This document shows, piece by piece, positions 3,139-26,897 of a stretch of 42,949 nucleotides of DNA. The stretch's first letter is position 1. Every line of letters starts with the position of its first letter. The notes below the pieces were generated by a model. It had not been told where the DNA came from, ran no database searches, and was given only the letters and a program-made list of their open reading frames with translations. Origin of the DNA: Nitrospirota bacterium (GTDB lineage: Bacteria; Nitrospirota; UBA9217); NCBI GenBank assembly GCA_021814615.1, contig JAKAHZ010000014.1, positions 1 through 42,949 on the forward strand, in the 5' to 3' direction. A program made the position numbers and the translations under genes.

Positions 3139-3273
3139 GGGGTCAGAAGCCAGAATTCAGAATACAGGAGAAGAACCAAGACCTATCTAAAAAGTTAATG
3201 CAGTAAAGCGAGCAGAATGCTTTGTTCCTGGCTCCTGACTACTGGCTCCTGGCTCCTGTTCTCAGACTCCGGA
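3139..3273. repeat. Inverted pair of heptamer arrays (TCAGAAG/CTCCTGG words)
   Basis: The left arm (3142-3169) reads in phase as GTCAGAA, GCCAGAA, TTCAGAA, TACAGGA. The right arm (3225-3273) reads TTCCTGG, CTCCTGA, CTACTGG, CTCCTGG, CTCCTGT and continues into the M48 gene. The arms are roughly complementary, so the RNA could fold into a long imperfect hairpin. The same words occur in the array at 33029-33108. Confidence 0.8.
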
Positions 3274-9524: not shown

Positions 9525-10214
9525 ATGATCGAACTCAAGAACGCAAGCAAGTCCTACAAGCAGGGTTCACGGGAAGTGCACGCATTGCGGAATGTGTCGC
9601 TCACCATCAGGAAAGGCGAATTTCTCTCGATCATGGGGCCGAGCGGTTCGGGCAAGAGCACGCTGTTGAACCTCGTCGGCGGGCTTGACCAGCCCTCGCA
9701 GGGCGAGATCTTCATGGACGGCAAGCCGCTCCACGGAATCTCGGACGATGAATTGACGCTCATCCGCAGGCGGCGCGTGGGATTCATTTTCCAGTTCTTC
9801 AACCTCCTGCCCATCCTGACCGCCGTGGAGAACGTGAGCCTTCCCCTCCTGCTCGAAGGCACGCCGTTCAACCAGATCCAGCCCCGGGCCGTCGAACTAT
9901 TGAACCAGATGGGCCTCGGCAACCGCGTGGAGCACCGGCCCGAGCAGCTCTCGGGCGGCGAAATGCAGCGGGTCGCCATCGCCCGGGCACTGGTGACGAA
10001 CCCCGCCGTGCTGCTTGCCGACGAGCCCACGGGCAATCTCGACTCCCACACCAGCGAGGAGATCTTCATGCTCCTCAAGACGCTCCACGATAAAGGCCAG
10101 ACCATCGTCATGGTGACCCATGACCCGCGCGCGGCTGCTTACGGCTCGCGCATCATCACGCTCAAGGACGGTTCGCTTTCGGAGGACATCGCCATCGGCG
10201 GACAGGCCGCGTAA
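9525..10214 (+). CDS. ABC transporter ATP-binding protein, LolD/MacB type
   Basis: A 229-residue ATPase of the MacB/LolD class that powers FtsX-type permeases. Walker [10 protein letters not shown] lies at 38-46, the signature LSGGE at 142-146 and Walker B LLADEPTG at 163-170, with the switch His in MVTHD. GAGGTG lies just upstream of the ATG. The partner permease starts 126 bases downstream. Together they should form a mechanotransmitting exporter of lipid, lipoprotein or hydrophobic compounds. Confidence 0.95.
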
Positions 10215-10340: not shown

Positions 10341-12929
10341 ATGACGCTCACCACCTTGCTTCGCCGCATCAGCCTCAAACACATCCGGCACCAGAAGATG
10401 AGAACGGCAATGGCGCTCTTCGGCGTCGCCCTGGGCGTCGCTGCCATGACCTCCATCGACATCGTGAACTCGAGCGTGATCCGGTCGCTTGAGGATTCGA
10501 TCAACCGCATCACCGGCAGGGCCGTACTCCAGATCACGGGCGCGGAGTCGGGATTCCCCGAGGAGATGCTCGAAAAGGTCCAGAAGGTGCCCGGCGTGGA
10601 ATATGCGGTGCCGGTGATCGAAACGAACGCCTCCCTGGCAACGGGCAGCGAGCGCTCCTTTGTAGTCCTCGGCGTGGACGTGCTGCAGGACAGCAACATG
10701 CGCGACTACAGCGTGACCGGCGACAGTTCCGACATCCCCGATCCCCTGCTCTTCCTCGCCAAGCCCGACTCCATCCTGCTTACCCGGGAGATGGCGCAGC
10801 GGGAAGGCATCAGCATCGATCAGAAGATCGAGGTCCAGACCGTACAGGGTCTGAAAACCTTCACGGTTCGCGGACTCCTCGAACCGGACGGTCCGGCCAA
10901 AGCACTCGGCGGCGATATCGCACTCATGGACATCTATGCGGCCCAACTGGCCTTCGGCAAGAATGCCCGCATCGACCGGATCGACGTGAGCGTGCTCCGT
11001 GGCGAGACCCTGGATTCGGTCAAGACCCGGATCCAGGCCGCCCTGCCGAGCGGGTACAATATCGACACGCCCGCCGGCAGGTCCCGCCAGATCGAGAACC
11101 TCATGGGCCGGTTCCGGAAGAGCATGGACGTGATCAGCTTCATGGCCCTCTTCGTCGGCATGTACCTGATCTACAACACCGTGTCCATCTCCGTGGTCCA
11201 GCGCAAAAAAGAGATCGGCATCCTGCGCGCCATCGGCGCAACGCGGGGTCAGATCATCGGGCTCTTCCTCGCGGAAACCGTCGCTCTTTCCCTCATTGCG
11301 TCCTTTCTGGGCGTTGCTCTCGGCTGGGTCCTCGCAAAGCTCTCGATCAACGCCGTGGCCCAGACCGTCTCGTCCATGTACGGCAGGTCTTCGGTCACGG
11401 GCCTGGACCTTTCCCTCGCGAGCGTCCTCAGGAACATCGCGACGGGCATCGTCGCCAGCCTGGCGGCCGCAGCCTTCCCCGCATACTCAAGCACCCATGT
11501 GGCACCGGTGTCGGCCATACGCTCACTTGCCTACACCTCGAACGGCACGGTGCTGCGCCGGCTTCAGAAGATTCTCGCTCTGTCCTTCATCCTCCTTGCC
11601 GGGATCATCATCGCCGTCTATAAGACCGTGGGCGTCGCCTCGCCGCTCCGGAACTCCTCAATGACCACCCTGGCAATGTTCTCCCTTACCCTGGGCGTTT
11701 CGCTCGCCGCGCCGCTCTTTCTCAAGTGGTTCATCAGGGCGTACCGCGCTGTTCTTGCCCCCCGTCTCGGCGCGGGAGGCAGGCTCGCGGGCCTGAACCT
11801 GGAAAAGAACCTTACGCGGAACGCCGTAGCGGTTGCGGCGGTCTTCTTCAGCATTTCCCTGTCCGTAAGCTCGTCGAGCATGATGAACAGCGCCCGCAGG
11901 GGCGTGATGGATTACATCGATTCCGTGGATAACAGCGATATCCTGATCACATCGGGACATCCCCTGGCGTCCGCCGGGGCTCCCACCATCCCTATGCCTC
12001 TCTCCATGCGGCAAGAGCTCGAATCCATCCCCGGCGTGCGGTCCGTGGACCCCTTCCGCAAGCTCTTCATCAACATCGACGGCAGGCGCGTGCTCCTCGA
12101 AATGATCGACGTGGTAACCTGGCCCAGGAACAACACCTGCACGATCATCGAGGGCGCGATGCAGGACATACCGCTGATCCGGGGAAAGGACGAGGTCACC
12201 GTGAACGAGAACGTCGCCATGCGCATGGGCCTCAAAAAAGGCAGCACCCTCGTCCTGCCCACGCCCTCCGGCCCCCGCCCTTTCAGGGTGGCGGCGGTCA
12301 TCGTGAGCTATGCGTCGGACTCCGGCGTCATCTTCATGGACATGCCGACCTACGAGAAATACTGGAACGATCATGTGTCCGACATGTTCTCGATATACGT
12401 GGAGAAGGGCCGTGACATCGCCGCGGTACGCACCGCGATCCAGAAGCGCTATCAGGGAACGCGGAAGATGTTTGTCCTTGCCGCGCTGGAATTCCGTCAG
12501 GAGATCAAGAAGATGCTCGACCGTTCCGTGGTCATGAACGACGCCGTGAACGTGCTCACGCTCTTGATCGCCGGCTTCGGCATCATCGTGACCCTGCTGG
12601 CCTCGGTGCTCGAACGCACGCGCGAGATCGGTATCCTGCGCTCCATCGGCATGCAGCGGCGCCAGGTGTCCGGCGTGGTGCTGATCGAATCGGCGCTCAT
12701 CGGCGCGGCGGGCGGATTGCTCGGCATTTGCGCCGGCGTGATCACGGGATGGATCAATCTGGAAGGGTTCTTCCGGATCGATTTCGGGCCGAGCATGGCC
12801 TACCACATCCACTACCCCTCGATCGCCACGGCCCTGCTGTTCGCGGTCGGGCTCTCCATCCTGGCAGGGCTTTACCCCGCGCGCCGCGCGGCGAAGACCA
12901 ACATCACGGAGGCGCTGGCGTATGAATAG
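10341..12929 (+). CDS. FtsX-like ABC transporter permease, double-length
   Basis: Inner-membrane permease of 862 residues. An N-terminal membrane anchor (about 18-38), a MacB-type periplasmic domain (about 40-245), an FtsX transmembrane domain (about 255-390), further central helices (about 405-510), a second periplasmic domain (about 520-730) and a second FtsX domain (about 735-855) are visible. The repeated KKEIGILRAIGATRGQI and TREIGILRSIGMQRRQV segments mark the two cytoplasmic coupling regions. Both halves are thus on one chain, unlike LolC and LolE. GAGGT precedes the ATG. The stop overlaps the start of the next gene by eight bases. Confidence 0.93.
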   Translation: MTLTTLLRRISLKHIRHQKMRTAMALFGVALGVAAMTSIDIVNSSVIRSLEDSINRITGRAVLQITGAESGFPEEMLEKVQKVPGVEYAVPVIETNASLATGSERSFVVLGVDVLQDSNMRDYSVTGDSSDIPDPLLFLAKPDSILLTREMAQREGISIDQKIEVQTVQGLKTFTVRGLLEPDGPAKALGGDIALMDIYAAQLAFGKNARIDRIDVSVLRGETLDSVKTRIQAALPSGYNIDTPAGRSRQIENLMGRFRKSMDVISFMALFVGMYLIYNTVSISVVQRKKEIGILRAIGATRGQIIGLFLAETVALSLIASFLGVALGWVLAKLSINAVAQTVSSMYGRSSVTGLDLSLASVLRNIATGIVASLAAAAFPAYSSTHVAPVSAIRSLAYTSNGTVLRRLQKILALSFILLAGIIIAVYKTVGVASPLRNSSMTTLAMFSLTLGVSLAAPLFLKWFIRAYRAVLAPRLGAGGRLAGLNLEKNLTRNAVAVAAVFFSISLSVSSSSMMNSARRGVMDYIDSVDNSDILITSGHPLASAGAPTIPMPLSMRQELESIPGVRSVDPFRKLFINIDGRRVLLEMIDVVTWPRNNTCTIIEGAMQDIPLIRGKDEVTVNENVAMRMGLKKGSTLVLPTPSGPRPFRVAAVIVSYASDSGVIFMDMPTYEKYWNDHVSDMFSIYVEKGRDIAAVRTAIQKRYQGTRKMFVLAALEFRQEIKKMLDRSVVMNDAVNVLTLLIAGFGIIVTLLASVLERTREIGILRSIGMQRRQVSGVVLIESALIGAAGGLLGICAGVITGWINLEGFFRIDFGPSMAYHIHYPSIATALLFAVGLSILAGLYPARRAAKTNITEALAYE

Positions 12930-13788
12930 AACATCGTACCAAGTACCAAGTACCGAGTACAAAGTAAGAGTCTCGCCTTCCCCTACTGCGACTCGTAGGG
13001 AAGCTGCGCTTCTAATCCGTTTCATACTATGTACTTTGTACTTGGTACTCAGTACTTACTCTTCTTCTTTTGCTTTTGCCATGTCCGGCCGCGAGGTATT
13101 CGAGAAGGTGCACGACGTAAGCATGAAGAGTTTGGATCATGAGATCGAGATGACCATGGTGCTCTTCGACAGGGGCGGCGGCAAGCGCACGCGCTCGCTC
13201 ACATCCTACAGCAAGAAGGCCGATCCGGAGGCGTACAAGGCGCTGGCGGTCTTCAACTCGCCGCCGGACCTCAAGAACGTCGGCTTTCTCGTGCATGCCC
13301 ATACCTTCTCGGATCGCGACCTCTGGGCCTATTTCCCCGAGTTCAAGCGCGTGCGGCGCATCGCGAACACGTCCCAGGACGATTCCTTCTTCGGATCCGA
13401 CCTTTCCTACGACGATTTCACCGGTCCGCCGAACCTCGACGATTTCAAGTTCGACATCCTGAAGGAGGAAACCGTCGACAACAAGCCCTGCTATGTCGTG
13501 GAGGTAACGCCGAAAACGCACCGCAAGTACACGAAGTACATCGCCTGGGTCGCCAAAGACCTCTGGATCCAGCTCAAGATCGAGTATTACCAGGACAAGG
13601 AGATGTATCGTACCGGTTCATTTCAGGATGTACGGAACATCGACGGAATCCCCACGCCCTTTCACAGCGAGATGACGAACAAGAAGACGAACCACCGCAC
13701 GGAACTGACGATCGACAGCATCAAGTATCACACCCGCTTCGGCGACGAGCTGTTCACGCAGCGTTCGCTGGAACGGGCGGGAAAGTAA
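12922..13788 (+). CDS. Outer membrane lipoprotein-sorting protein (LolA-like, PF17131 type)
   Basis: Periplasmic carrier of 288 residues. The mature part (from about residue 54) resembles the LolA-like family, with a DRDLWAYFPEFKRVRRI segment and a YDDFTGPPNL motif. Its ATG overlaps the permease stop and has GGAGG nine bases upstream. The first 53 residues are unusual: residues 5-16 and 35-47 are encoded by the two arms of a GTACTTG heptamer array, and the second supplies the hydrophobic core of the signal peptide, followed by an AFA cleavage site at 51-53. An internal ATG at 13081 has no ribosome site. By context it carries the exported lipid or lipoprotein across the periplasm. Confidence 0.85.
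   Translation: MNRTSYQVPSTEYKVRVSPSPTATRREAALLIRFILCTLYLVLSTYSSSFAFAMSGREVFEKVHDVSMKSLDHEIEMTMVLFDRGGGKRTRSLTSYSKKADPEAYKALAVFNSPPDLKNVGFLVHAHTFSDRDLWAYFPEFKRVRRIANTSQDDSFFGSDLSYDDFTGPPNLDDFKFDILKEETVDNKPCYVVEVTPKTHRKYTKYIAWVAKDLWIQLKIEYYQDKEMYRTGSFQDVRNIDGIPTPFHSEMTNKKTNHRTELTIDSIKYHTRFGDELFTQRSLERAGK
12936..13062. repeat. Inverted GTACCAA/TACTTGG heptamer arrays within a coding region
   Basis: The left arm (12936-12968) reads GTACCAA, GTACCAA, GTACCGA, GTACAAA. The right arm (13025-13062) contains TACTTTG, TACTTGG, TACTCAG, TACTTAC. The arms are complementary. It starts seven bases after the permease stop codon but is read through as the 5' part of the LolA-like gene. The same word forms the array at 26858-26897. 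Confidence 0.88.
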
Positions 13789-13793
13789 GATTA

Positions 13794-13849
13794 GTTCGGA
13801 GTTCGGAGTTCGGTGTTCGGAGTTGGGAATTCGTAGTTCGAGGTGCGGA
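13794..13849. repeat. GTTCGGA heptamer array, eight in-phase units
   Basis: Eight consecutive seven-base units from 13794: GTTCGGA twice, GTTCGGT, GTTCGGA, then more degenerate GTTGGGA, ATTCGTA, GTTCGAG and GTGCGGA. It starts six bases after the stop codon of the LolA-like gene and runs into the possible GTG start of the next gene. Confidence 0.9.
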
Positions 13850-16155: not shown

Positions 16156-16956
16156 TCATCTCGCGTCGTCGAGCTTCTGGGTTCCCTTGCACTTCGGATA
16201 ACCGGTGCAGCCCCAGAACTGCGATCCGGCGTTCGCGCCCTTTCGCGCGGTCCGAAGGACCATCAGGCTCCCGCACTGCGGGCAAGTTAATGCCTTTCCA
16301 GCAGTCTGATCCGGCGGATCGGCCTGATCTCGCTTGCGCTTCTCGATCCTCGCCTTTGCCAGCTGCTCGGAGTAGCCTCCGCCTTCGACGAACTGCCGTT
16401 CCAGCGCCGTGATCTGCTGGTCGAGCAGGTAATTGGCCTGGTGGATCAAGCAGATGAGAGCATTGGCAACAACCGCCGGGTCTTTGCTGTTCAACCATGC
16501 AGCGTACGCCGCATGATCCGTCCGATCCGTCGGATCCGTCTGATCGCCGAGCCGCTTTCCCACGGCCCGCACCTCCCGAGCTTGGGGATCGTCCTTGTTC
16601 CATTGCGGGAGTCCGCGCTGTCGAAGGAAATCCTCGTAGTCCAGCAGCAGCTCGTCCAGACTAGCCCGTGCGACATTGAGCAACCGTAATTCGGTTTGGG
16701 ACGAGGTCGCCGATGCGCGGCTGCCTTCCGCGATATTCTGCCGCCCGCTTCGGCCGGCCTGCACCATCTGGTCGACCGTGCGCGAGCGCTTGTCCACAAA
16801 GCGGTCGCAGAACGATACAGTGGCGTCGTAAATCACGGTCGCGGTCTGGAATGAGCGGAGCGTCCGGTAACCGCCGCTCGGCCGCAGCCGCATCCGCTGC
16901 TTTTGGCAGTCCTGTCCCGTCAACTGCGCATCTTTGCTATTCCTATCGTTCGTCAT
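16156..16956 (-). CDS. Four-helix-bundle protein with suffix domain and topoisomerase-type zinc ribbon
   Basis: A 266-residue protein in three parts. Residues about 40-120 form an S23/IVP-type four-helix bundle (VDQMVQAGRSGRQNIAEGS is the hallmark). About 130-210 correspond to the four-helix-bundle suffix region (INYLLD-like ANYLLDQQITALE). The C-terminus carries a C4 zinc ribbon of the topoisomerase I tail type (LTCPQCGSLMVLR ... FWGCTGYPKC). The family function is unknown; such genes are often found in variable loci. It starts 49 bases after the restriction-modification gene in the same direction, so the two probably form one unit. Confidence 0.85.
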   Translation of the reverse strand: MTNDRNSKDAQLTGQDCQKQRMRLRPSGGYRTLRSFQTATVIYDATVSFCDRFVDKRSRTVDQMVQAGRSGRQNIAEGSRASATSSQTELRLLNVARASLDELLLDYEDFLRQRGLPQWNKDDPQAREVRAVGKRLGDQTDPTDRTDHAAYAAWLNSKDPAVVANALICLIHQANYLLDQQITALERQFVEGGGYSEQLAKARIEKRKRDQADPPDQTAGKALTCPQCGSLMVLRTARKGANAGSQFWGCTGYPKCKGTQKLDDAR

Positions 16957-17005: not shown

Positions 17006-20000
17006 CTATTTCCCCGGCCACGGATAGGTTTCCTTGATCACCTGCCGGTAGTTCTCATCCAGCGCCGGCTGCATGGCGATAAGCGACGCAATGCGGCGGG
17101 CCATCTCGGTCACGTAGCGGACCTCTTCCGGCGTCAGTCCCCTCCCGAGCAAGTCCTTCTCGCGGTACGAAAGCCATTTTTTGATCACCTGATACCCGCC
17201 GATCGTGTATTCCCAGACTTCTTTCGGCACATTCCGCCAACGGCAATTCTGGTTCAGATAGATATCGAGGCTGCCGCCGTTCTCGCGGACAAGACCTTTG
17301 CCCGGCATGGTGATGCCGCCCTTGCCCGCGTGGCCCCAGCCGGCGGTCAGATCGAGATCGCCGGCGGTCGGGTTCGCCTGCTTGCCGTCTGTGCGCTCGA
17401 ACACACCTATGGTCTTGAGATCGTCCTGTATCTTGCCAGTCGTCACGCCAGGCACGGGCGTTTCGGTATCGAGTAAAGCGGCAACTTGTTTCCCGAGTTC
17501 AGCCGATGCGAGCAAGACAGACTTTCCTTTCGGCAAAGGAATGCGTGGCCAGTCTTGACGAATAGCGTCTGCGTTTCCGTTGAGGTACTTCGGCGAGTAA
17601 CCGATAGCCAGCGCGTGATACCATATCAGTTCAGTTTTTACCTTATCAGACCGATTATCCAGCCCTTGGCTTACAAGATAGTTAGTTGCTGAGAGAGATA
17701 GATTGCCTTGATCCTCAGCATTATCTCTTTCTTGAGTGAATAAATTTGGTCTCTCCACATAAGCTGCGCTGGGAATGTAGGATGGGAAACAAACACTTCC
17801 CGGGCGTGTGAGGTGTCGATCCGGCAGATGACGGCTTACAAAAAATGGCGTGCCTTCTTCGGTTCGCTCTCCCCTCGCCCGACTCGTCATGAAAAATACA
17901 TCACTACAGCTATATCGAAATAACTCTTCCCGTTTTTCATCCAACAGTTTCGTTTTAGGATGCCAGTAAACGTAACGATTATCCAAGGGTCGATAAGCAT
18001 AGCGCACAACACGACCTGATGAAATGCCTGCATTTAAGAGTACACGTCTCGTTTCGTGAGGATCAAATCGCCCTGAAGATAGCATAAGAGACGGCGTCAA
18101 ATCGTGAATTTCTGCATCGGTGATATGTGAATCAAAATAGGCTTGCATCTTTTTCTCGACCACTTCGCGCTCAATTGCCACTAGATCTGCGTCCCGACTT
18201 GTGTTCACGCCAGGCGATGATTTCTCGAACAATCCAGAAAGTAGTGGCCAGTTAAGGTAAGCTGTCTCTACCGTGGTCGGCATAAATGGCAAGCCAAGCG
18301 GCAATGTGGGATTATGATTTTCATAGTTCGCATCAACCGCTAATAGCAATTCATCCCGTTTATTTCTTCCCCAGAAGTTACGAAATTTCACGACAGCGGA
18401 TGCCGCGTCTGATTTCCCAGTTTTCTTCACCAGCGTCGCTATCGCCGTACCGACCTGGATGCCTTCGCGATTGAACTCTGTGGAAAATACACTCGGATCA
18501 GGCTCGCCTTCCGGCGTAAGCTTGCCGGTCTTGTACTTGTCGCCGTTCATGCAGTCAATGGCGATATTGTCAAATGCTTCCAGATATTTTTCCCTCATCC
18601 CGGTATACGACAGTCCGTCGAGCCACGAGTAATTCGAGATGAAGCAGACAACGCCTTTGCCGGCTTTCTCCACGATCCTGCGTTCCGCCATGCGGAAGAA
18701 CCGGACAAAGAGATCGTTCAAGCCCTGCCCTTGAGGAGCCGCGACTTTCTTCACGCTGCGGTATGCATTGGACAGGTCCCGTTCCTCGTCCATGGCAATT
18801 CCCGCGAAACCGTTATACGGCGGATTTCCGAGGATCACGAGGATCGGCTTTTCCTGCTTCACCTTCCCCGCAGCATCGCGTTCTTCAGCGAATCCCGGAA
18901 AGGCGATCTGCTTCGGCTTCTCCTTGGGCGGCTCCCAGCCGGTGAGCGCGTTCGTGAGATACACGCCTGCGCGCTCTGGCGGATCGATGGTATCGCTCAA
19001 CGGCGCGCCGAGGGTTTCGAGCTCCAGGCCGATCTGGAGATGGGCGATCACGAAGGGCGCGGGAAGGATCTCGAAGCCGAATACCCTCTCCATCGCGGCC
19101 TTTTTGAGGTCATTGGCGATAAGCGCGTCGCCGCCCTTGTCATGGAGCGTCGCGGCGATACGGCGAAGCACCGCGCGAAGATACGCGCCGGTGCCGCAGC
19201 AGGGATCGAGCACCACCACATTCGGGTCGGCGAGGCCGTCGGGCAGATTCAGCTCCGAGCGGAGCACGGCATCCACGCGCTCGACCTGGTATTTGACGAT
19301 CTCCTCGGGCGTATACCAGACGCCCAGTTCCTTGCGCAGCTCGGGATCGAAGGCGTGCAGGAAGGGCTCGTAGAAATACTGGACCGCATGTCCCTCGTCA
19401 AAGGACTTGAAGAACGCTGTCCGGTCCACGCGATTAAGCGCCGCCGCTGACCAGTCGAGGACCTCGATCAGCCCGAGCGAGCCCAGCCGGGCCGGATCGG
19501 CGACCTGCATGAACAAGGCGCGCAGCATCGGAACGCGCAGAAGCCAATGCGAGGTTTTCCAATCGAAGGGGCCGGACACCGCATAGGCCGCGGACGAGTC
19601 GTGGATCTTGTCGGCAAAGGATTTCTGTGGCTGCTTGACGTCCCTGCGGCGCGCCCAGAGCACCCAGGAGGAGAACACGCAGTAAAAGAGCGTCTGGACC
19701 AGCGTGGAACGGAAGAAATGCTCGCCTTTATCTCCCTCGAACTTGAGCCCGAGCGCGTCTTCGAGTGCGTTCCGGAGGCTTTCGAGGGCGGGCATATCCG
19801 CCCGTTCGATCCGGAGCCGCGCGTCGTGGGCGTAGGACGCAAGAATCGTCGCAACATCCTTCGGTTCGGCAAGCGGCGCATTGTGCAGCAGCACGCGGCG
19901 AAGATACTCCGCCATCCGTTCTCCGTGCTCGGCGGCGGCTTTCTTCGGATGGGCGGCAAGCTGCCAGAATTCCTTTTCTGAATCCGCCAGGGAGAAGGCT

Positions 20001-26784: not shown

Positions 26785-26857
26785 GCTCTATACCCCCTCA
26801 CTGATTTCTTTCGAAATAGTTCCCAGCAAAGTTAACGATGCTTCTGAAGTTGCTCTG

Positions 26858-26897
26858 TACTTGGTACTTGGTACTTGGTACTTGGTACTTGGTACTG
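26858..26897. repeat. TACTTGG heptamer array, five perfect copies
   Basis: Five exact tandem copies of TACTTGG (26858-26892) followed by a partial unit. It lies four bases beyond the gatB stop codon on the minus strand. The word is the same as in the array at 12936-13062. Confidence 0.95.

Follow-up and report, generated by a model that had tools for sequence, protein, structure and literature searches.

What DNA gives rise to a new signal peptide? Signal peptides evolve quickly and the origin of new ones is rarely visible. The question is raised by a 42,949-nucleotide stretch of DNA (hereafter the window) from the 3.49 Mb genome of an uncultured Nitrospirota MAG, in which the leader of a LolA-like periplasmic carrier contains two arms of a seven-base repeat. 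Genomes are referred to below by G numbers.

Repeat arms in the window leader

The carrier gene follows those of an ABC transporter ATPase and an FtsX/MacB-type permease (Table 1). Its ATG (12922-12924) overlaps the end of the permease gene, whose TAG stop is at 12927-12929, giving a gene overlap of 8 nt. The reading frame is open from this ATG through to 13788, which bears out the proposal of the first-pass annotation that the repeat is read in frame. Residues 106-285 of the product belong to the LolA_like family (PF17131), with 183.7 bits against a gathering score of 30.

The 7-bp unit, AGTACCA/TGGTACT, forms an inverted pair of arrays, in frame between the ATG and the mature domain. The left arm has its core at 12936-12960 and reaches about 12966 when partial units are included. 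The two arms are complementary at 82% over 34 nt, or at 88% over 26 nt, and tested for period 7 the leader scores 15 (p = 0.001 against shuffles). The pattern GTACTTNGTACTTNGTAC has 28 matches genome-wide, compared with 0 for a reversed control, and copies of the array elsewhere in the genome match with E values down to 2.7e-7. The window has other heptad arrays at or near the ends of genes (3226-3258, 13793-13840 and 26857-26896), and a period-9 array, GATCCGTCC, is present at 16515-16545 within a reverse-strand ORF (16156-16956).

The leader contains a positive n-region, a hydrophobic core and an AFA end, and cleavage is predicted after AFA, making M54 the mature +1 residue. The h-region following R33 is FILCTLYLVLSTY, to which the right arm contributes residues 35-45, preceded by AALLIRF encoded by the spacer. 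The signal peptide is probably functional. The right arm had previously been assigned to residues 35-47 and the left arm to residues 5-16, with the ribosome-binding site placed at 12907: the roles in h-core and n-region hold, as does the GGAGG upstream of the ATG, while the arms are somewhat shorter (35-45 and about 5-15) and the site begins at 12908, one base later.

The only alternative in-frame starts, TTG39 and TTG41, are 15 and 13 residues before the cleavage site, too close for either to yield a signal peptide. In orthologues from other species the residue corresponding to M54 is Leu or Ile (ALSGRE, AISGRD), so that M54 is not the start. Judged from sequence, the overlap ATG is supported as the start of translation, since the frame is conserved in 16 orthologues.

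Table 1. Features of the window locus, with the G004 genes that carry internal arrays
Feature	Position	Strand	Basis
ABC transporter ATPase gene of the operon	9525..10214	+	Pfam ABC_tran 1.3e-36
FtsX/MacB-type permease gene	10341..12929	+	Pfam FtsX 1e-39, MacB_PCD 7.9e-28
GGAGG ribosome-binding site	12908..12912	+	sequence; 9 nt 5' of ATG 12922
LolA-like periplasmic carrier gene, 288 aa, leader 53 aa	12922..13788	+	Pfam LolA_like PF17131 3.5e-54; frame in 16 orthologues
Predicted signal peptide, MNRTSYQVPSTEYKVRVSPSPTATRREAALLIR-FILCTLYLVLSTYSSS-FAFA	12922..13080	+	leader boundary taken from orthologues
Left heptad arm, GTACCAA units, n-region, residues ~5-15	12936..12966	+	repeat and leader analysis
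Right heptad arm, TTGGTAC units, most of h-region, residues 35-45	13025..13056	+	repeat and leader analysis
Predicted RNA hairpin, both arms	12936..13055	+	fold of region 12900-13090, -66.1 kcal/mol, z -6.3
Second heptad array (AGTTCGG), intergenic, LolA-like gene / next gene	13793..13840	+	period-7 score 20
G004 genes with internal arrays (HisA, CobB/CobQ-like, MoCF-domain)	L165:4072-4926, L175:11416-12948, L164:12467-13867

Leaders of orthologous carriers

Sixteen leaders, the window's included, were compared, drawn from the window's Nitrospirota family and from Deltaproteobacteria with one genome per species. In every one of them the frame is open from an upstream start into [SNT]GR, the first motif of the mature domain. 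The mature domains are 65-85% identical and the leaders unrelated. Leaders with an unambiguous start have lengths between 23 and 65 aa, and the leaders end in AxA or similar directly before [MLI][SNT]GR. The outcome that the first-pass annotation had named as telling against its reading, namely orthologues with the same N-terminal 53 residues and no repeat, did not appear. The examined orthologues also have the overlapping start of TATGAATAG type (in one case TATGACTGA), with GGAGG at the equivalent place except in a Syntrophobacterales sequence (CGAGAC).

Significant period-7 arrays (p <= 0.005) are present in 7 of the 16 leaders and comprise at least six unit types: an AGTACCA pair in the window, an ATTTCGG pair in G004, AGTTCAA in G011 and G013, AGTGCGG in G001, CTGTCTT in G007 and ATTGCGG in the deltaproteobacterium Delta_1637. 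In 48 control segments of the mature domain the period-7 score was never above 5. Others are ordinary signal peptides of 23-33 residues, and most Deltaproteobacterial orthologues have such a peptide, without repeats. The clearest array is that of the G007 leader, which has no other start codon; it encodes 11 of the 12 h-core residues. The G001 h-region includes CTCCGTGTCCTCTGTG, a 9-mer-type motif dispersed in 7 of the 8 genomes searched. A CTCTGCG-like leader from the Syntrophobacterales, with a score of 6 and p 0.055, fell short of significance and was dropped, and the lolA leader of G010 is ambiguous, having an internal ATG.

Leader units differ even within a genus: G000 and G001 carry AGTACCA and AGTGCGG, respectively, in the lolA leader, and AGTTCGG and AGTGCGG in that of the pseudopilin GspJ. 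Between G011 and G013 the lolA leader has 8 nonsynonymous and 2 synonymous codon differences, with the frame kept, compared with 1 and 14 at the end of the permease gene (p 3e-4 for the contrast). Two other arrangements were seen at these loci. In L052 (G003:C128, around 18797-19120) a deletion remnant has a sequence resembling the operon's PadR-type regulator directly ahead of the last part of a LolA-like gene; one lolA leader contains a different palindromic repeat, GGCGTATTGCAATACGCC (L039:2930-2965).

Dispersal of heptads and their presence in other proteins

Measured against a third-order Markov background, 301 kb of sequence has an excess of arrays of period 7 (nine arrays) and period 9 (three), the remaining excess being harmonics of 7 or 9, one other period and a run of N that scores everywhere. 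There are 26 period-7 arrays in 675 kb of G000, with nine in the first 301 kb where none is expected outside the N run; with a period of exactly 7 and many copies genome-wide, they are dispersed heptamers of the SSR/STRR type. Densities per 100 kb of the sampled stretches are 3.9 in G000, 3.1 in G001, 15.2 in G004 and 6.9 in G011, figures biased by the choice of the G004, G011 and part of the G000 stretches partly for their repeats. By a crude gene caller, intergenic arrays are the largest class in G000 (13 of 26), G001 and G011, and make up 16 of 49 in G004, where many others are in open stretches 5' of genes; this mostly intergenic placement is that of dispersed heptamer repeats.

Each genome of the family favours its own heptad units, and the leader units match the repertoire of their own genome: ATTTCGG/ATTGCGG in G004 (115 matches) and AGTGCGG in G001. 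A pattern search of 296 Nitrospirota for the junction together with the units returned arrays and no junctions, and bears only on the concentration of ANTGCGG arrays in the window's family, which are present in 7 of 14 family genomes compared with 2 of about 282 others. Arrays were present at 7 of 107 overlap junctions of exported proteins and 2 of 155 others (p 0.034), a weak sign of enrichment from a sample partly picked for arrays.

A second group of exported proteins has similar leaders. Across the type II secretion operons of 11 family genomes we considered GspJ, GspI and an upstream prepilin, the latter called GspH by position; in G000 GspJ scores above the Pfam cut-off and GspI below it. 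Significant heptad arrays (p = 0.003) are present in about 20 of 32 of these leaders. In many cases they form an inverted pair, with a right arm that stops immediately ahead of the G^F cleavage site and encodes SAIRNPQSKG, SALRTPHSKG or SELRTPNSQG, followed by G^FTLLE. Leaders consisting largely of heptad pairs are found at L112:18734-19946, L218, L221 and L223. In GspJ of G000, G006 and G008 the overlap ATG is the sole possible start, so that the array is translated if the gene is; several other pseudopilin leaders have internal start codons, and some of their arrays may therefore be untranslated. Short array-free leaders also exist, such as MKRNRRSG^F in G005 and MSSNPHSKG^F in G011, and the GspJ leaders of G005, G010 and G011 are without a significant array. 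The GspJ leader of G002 (L225) holds another palindromic repeat, CCTCTCCCTTTGGGGGAGAGG. In the region upstream of L229, AGTGCGG units carry GGAG six bases 5' of GTG, so that such an array might furnish both a ribosome site and a start codon for itself.

Arrays are not confined to exported proteins. In at least four species (G004, G003, G010 and G000) they occupy the interdomain linker of MutL, in frame at L168:9110-10858 (G004) and G000:C20:4280-6031, and as inverted pairs in G004 and G003. The MutL linkers of G001, G002, G007, G009, G006 and G011 lack significant arrays, that of G006 looking decayed. The right arms share a register in G000, G003, G004 and G010, as does the decayed one in G006, which suggests an ancient array with turnover of its units rather than independent landings. 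G004 also has in-frame ATTTCGG/ATTGCGG arrays within genes for HisA-, CobB/CobQ-like and MoCF-domain proteins. Leaders of M23 peptidases (G001, G004, G009, G006) were not counted as a recurrent case, since start codons preceded by ribosome sites lie downstream and it is doubtful that the array is translated.

Origin of the leaders and known precedents

We consider it probable that dispersed heptads, tolerated at overlapping genes and in disposable leaders, have repeatedly become leader peptides. The window array would belong to a dispersed and rapidly changing type of 7-bp repeat, built of tandem heptads that mostly fit ANTNCRR, often in two inverted arms with a spacer of roughly 30-90 nt, and residing in this family mostly in intergenic DNA. 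The overlap of permease and carrier genes leaves no intergenic DNA at the junction, and where genes abut in this way a cleaved leader may be the least costly site for repeats. A stop-free insertion that keeps the frame would be translated as additional n-region. Whichever frame is read, an array encodes one and the same cyclic heptapeptide, since seven is not divisible by three. Purine-rich strands encode polar peptides (STKYQVP, SSEFGVR), and some units have a T-rich strand that encodes hydrophobic ones (WYLVLGT, SVFCLLS), so that an array can also supply an h-region. An inverted pair could furnish both regions, as it appears to do in the window.

The arrays probably arrived by insertion or copying, and were probably tolerated rather than selected; at lolA, where the leaders have diverged beyond alignment, they may instead have come by replacement or grown by slippage. 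Domestication of intergenic repeat DNA had been proposed for this locus. A repeat-derived leader survives from that proposal; an intergenic origin does not, because the permease and carrier genes overlap, as they do in the orthologues examined, and the repeats would thus have entered or partly replaced an existing cleaved leader. Nor was there a single domestication, given that the same leader holds different heptad families and that pseudopilin leaders and the MutL linker do likewise: this is better explained by capture that recurred and was tolerated than by a single adaptive event.

The strongest alternative, unlikely though a real contender, is that one ancestral array occupied the leader in this family and that today's units reflect concerted change in place. 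The common register of the MutL arms, the position of GspJ arms at two shared sites in G000, G001, G006 and G009, and the single lolA array common to G011 and G013 all point this way. Against it, lolA arrays vary in place and strand, lying in the n-region in G004, G001 and G011 and, in G007, forming an h-region that is T-rich, and one of the Deltaproteobacteria has a lolA array of its own. Turnover of this kind overlaps with repeated capture, repeats being the source of the leader in both, so that the likelihoods attached to the two are not exclusive.

REP elements have been proposed to act between operon genes through mRNA hairpins, and the arms could similarly be kept as an intercistronic RNA hairpin for operon coupling, processing or stability, with the leader peptide as a by-product. 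Paired arms do fold strongly (z -6.3 in the window, -8.1 for G001 GspJ, -3.4 for G000 GspJ and -3.3 for G004 lolA), and their complementarity is retained despite species-specific units, yet template switching within a hairpin could also produce complementary arms. Moreover, a conserved hairpin at lolA was tested for and is absent where arrays are direct only (G001, G007, G011 and Delta_1637, z above 0), most Deltaproteobacterial orthologues have no array, and the three GspJ leaders noted above are without a significant one. We regard this explanation as distinctly unlikely. Also unlikely is a dedicated process of the family by which species-specific heptad pairs are written or made uniform where operon genes overlap, with hairpin and leader used jointly; if real, it might for example tune the relative amounts in which pseudopilins and the LolA-like carrier are made.

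Phase variation, in which gain or loss of heptads would shift the frame and switch the carrier off, is highly improbable: seven-base units do alter the reading frame, and phase variation of HMW1A in Haemophilus influenzae is reportedly linked to heptanucleotide repeats (PMC8262952), but the units here are imperfect and few (3-5) and all sampled species are in frame, where some off-state genomes would be expected. There is similarly little to recommend an untranslated array with a downstream start, for although the codon-usage caller picks M54 and the leader composition is not coding-like, M54 is the mature +1 residue (Leu or Ile in orthologues), no ribosome site precedes it or TTG39/41, and the overlap ATG, GGAGG and frame are widely conserved.

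On repeated capture, the source DNA of a new signal peptide would be legible here, and a single leader can be compared with various fillings and with none. Protein segments removed by cleavage would offer repeats a route into tightly packed operons. There is also a warning that gene callers may misplace the starts of genes with array leaders, as the choice of M54 illustrates.

As to known systems, the domain and operon partners match those of LolA-like lipoprotein-sorting proteins (PF17131) with FtsX/MacB-type transporters; the leader alone is unusual, the mature protein being ordinary. Dispersed bacterial heptamers and in-frame palindromic elements are already known, whereas heptads as export leaders, of which we found no report in the open-access literature, are apparently new. 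Like the GGGNATC heptads of Xanthomonas and Nostoc, which are of G-quadruplex type and are reported to be under-represented in coding regions (Rehm et al. 2015, PMC4692102), and the cyanobacterial STRR, the arrays are genome-wide and mainly intergenic. The closest precedents are two. The TAACTGA heptamers of Beggiatoaceae (MacGregor 2015, PMC4679880) are likewise intergenic 7-bp tandem repeats 5' of genes, with about 25 ORFs overlapping them, mostly at protein ends; they differ in having a single unit, which contains stops in forward orientation, and only one indirect repeat, and no leader peptides or recurrence at orthologous sites, appear to be reported for them. The palindromic elements that Rickettsia carries within its coding genes (Ogata et al. 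2000, 2002, summarised in PMC10969869) are dispersed palindromic repeats translated in frame in unrelated proteins at tolerated positions, and the inverted pairs in lolA, GspI, GspJ and MutL behave in the same way. However, those elements form families of about 150 bp, while here the arms are 7-bp tandems with changing units, many in cleaved export leaders; given this build homology is unlikely, and the likeness to the Rickettsia elements is one of behaviour, with no membership of their family claimed.
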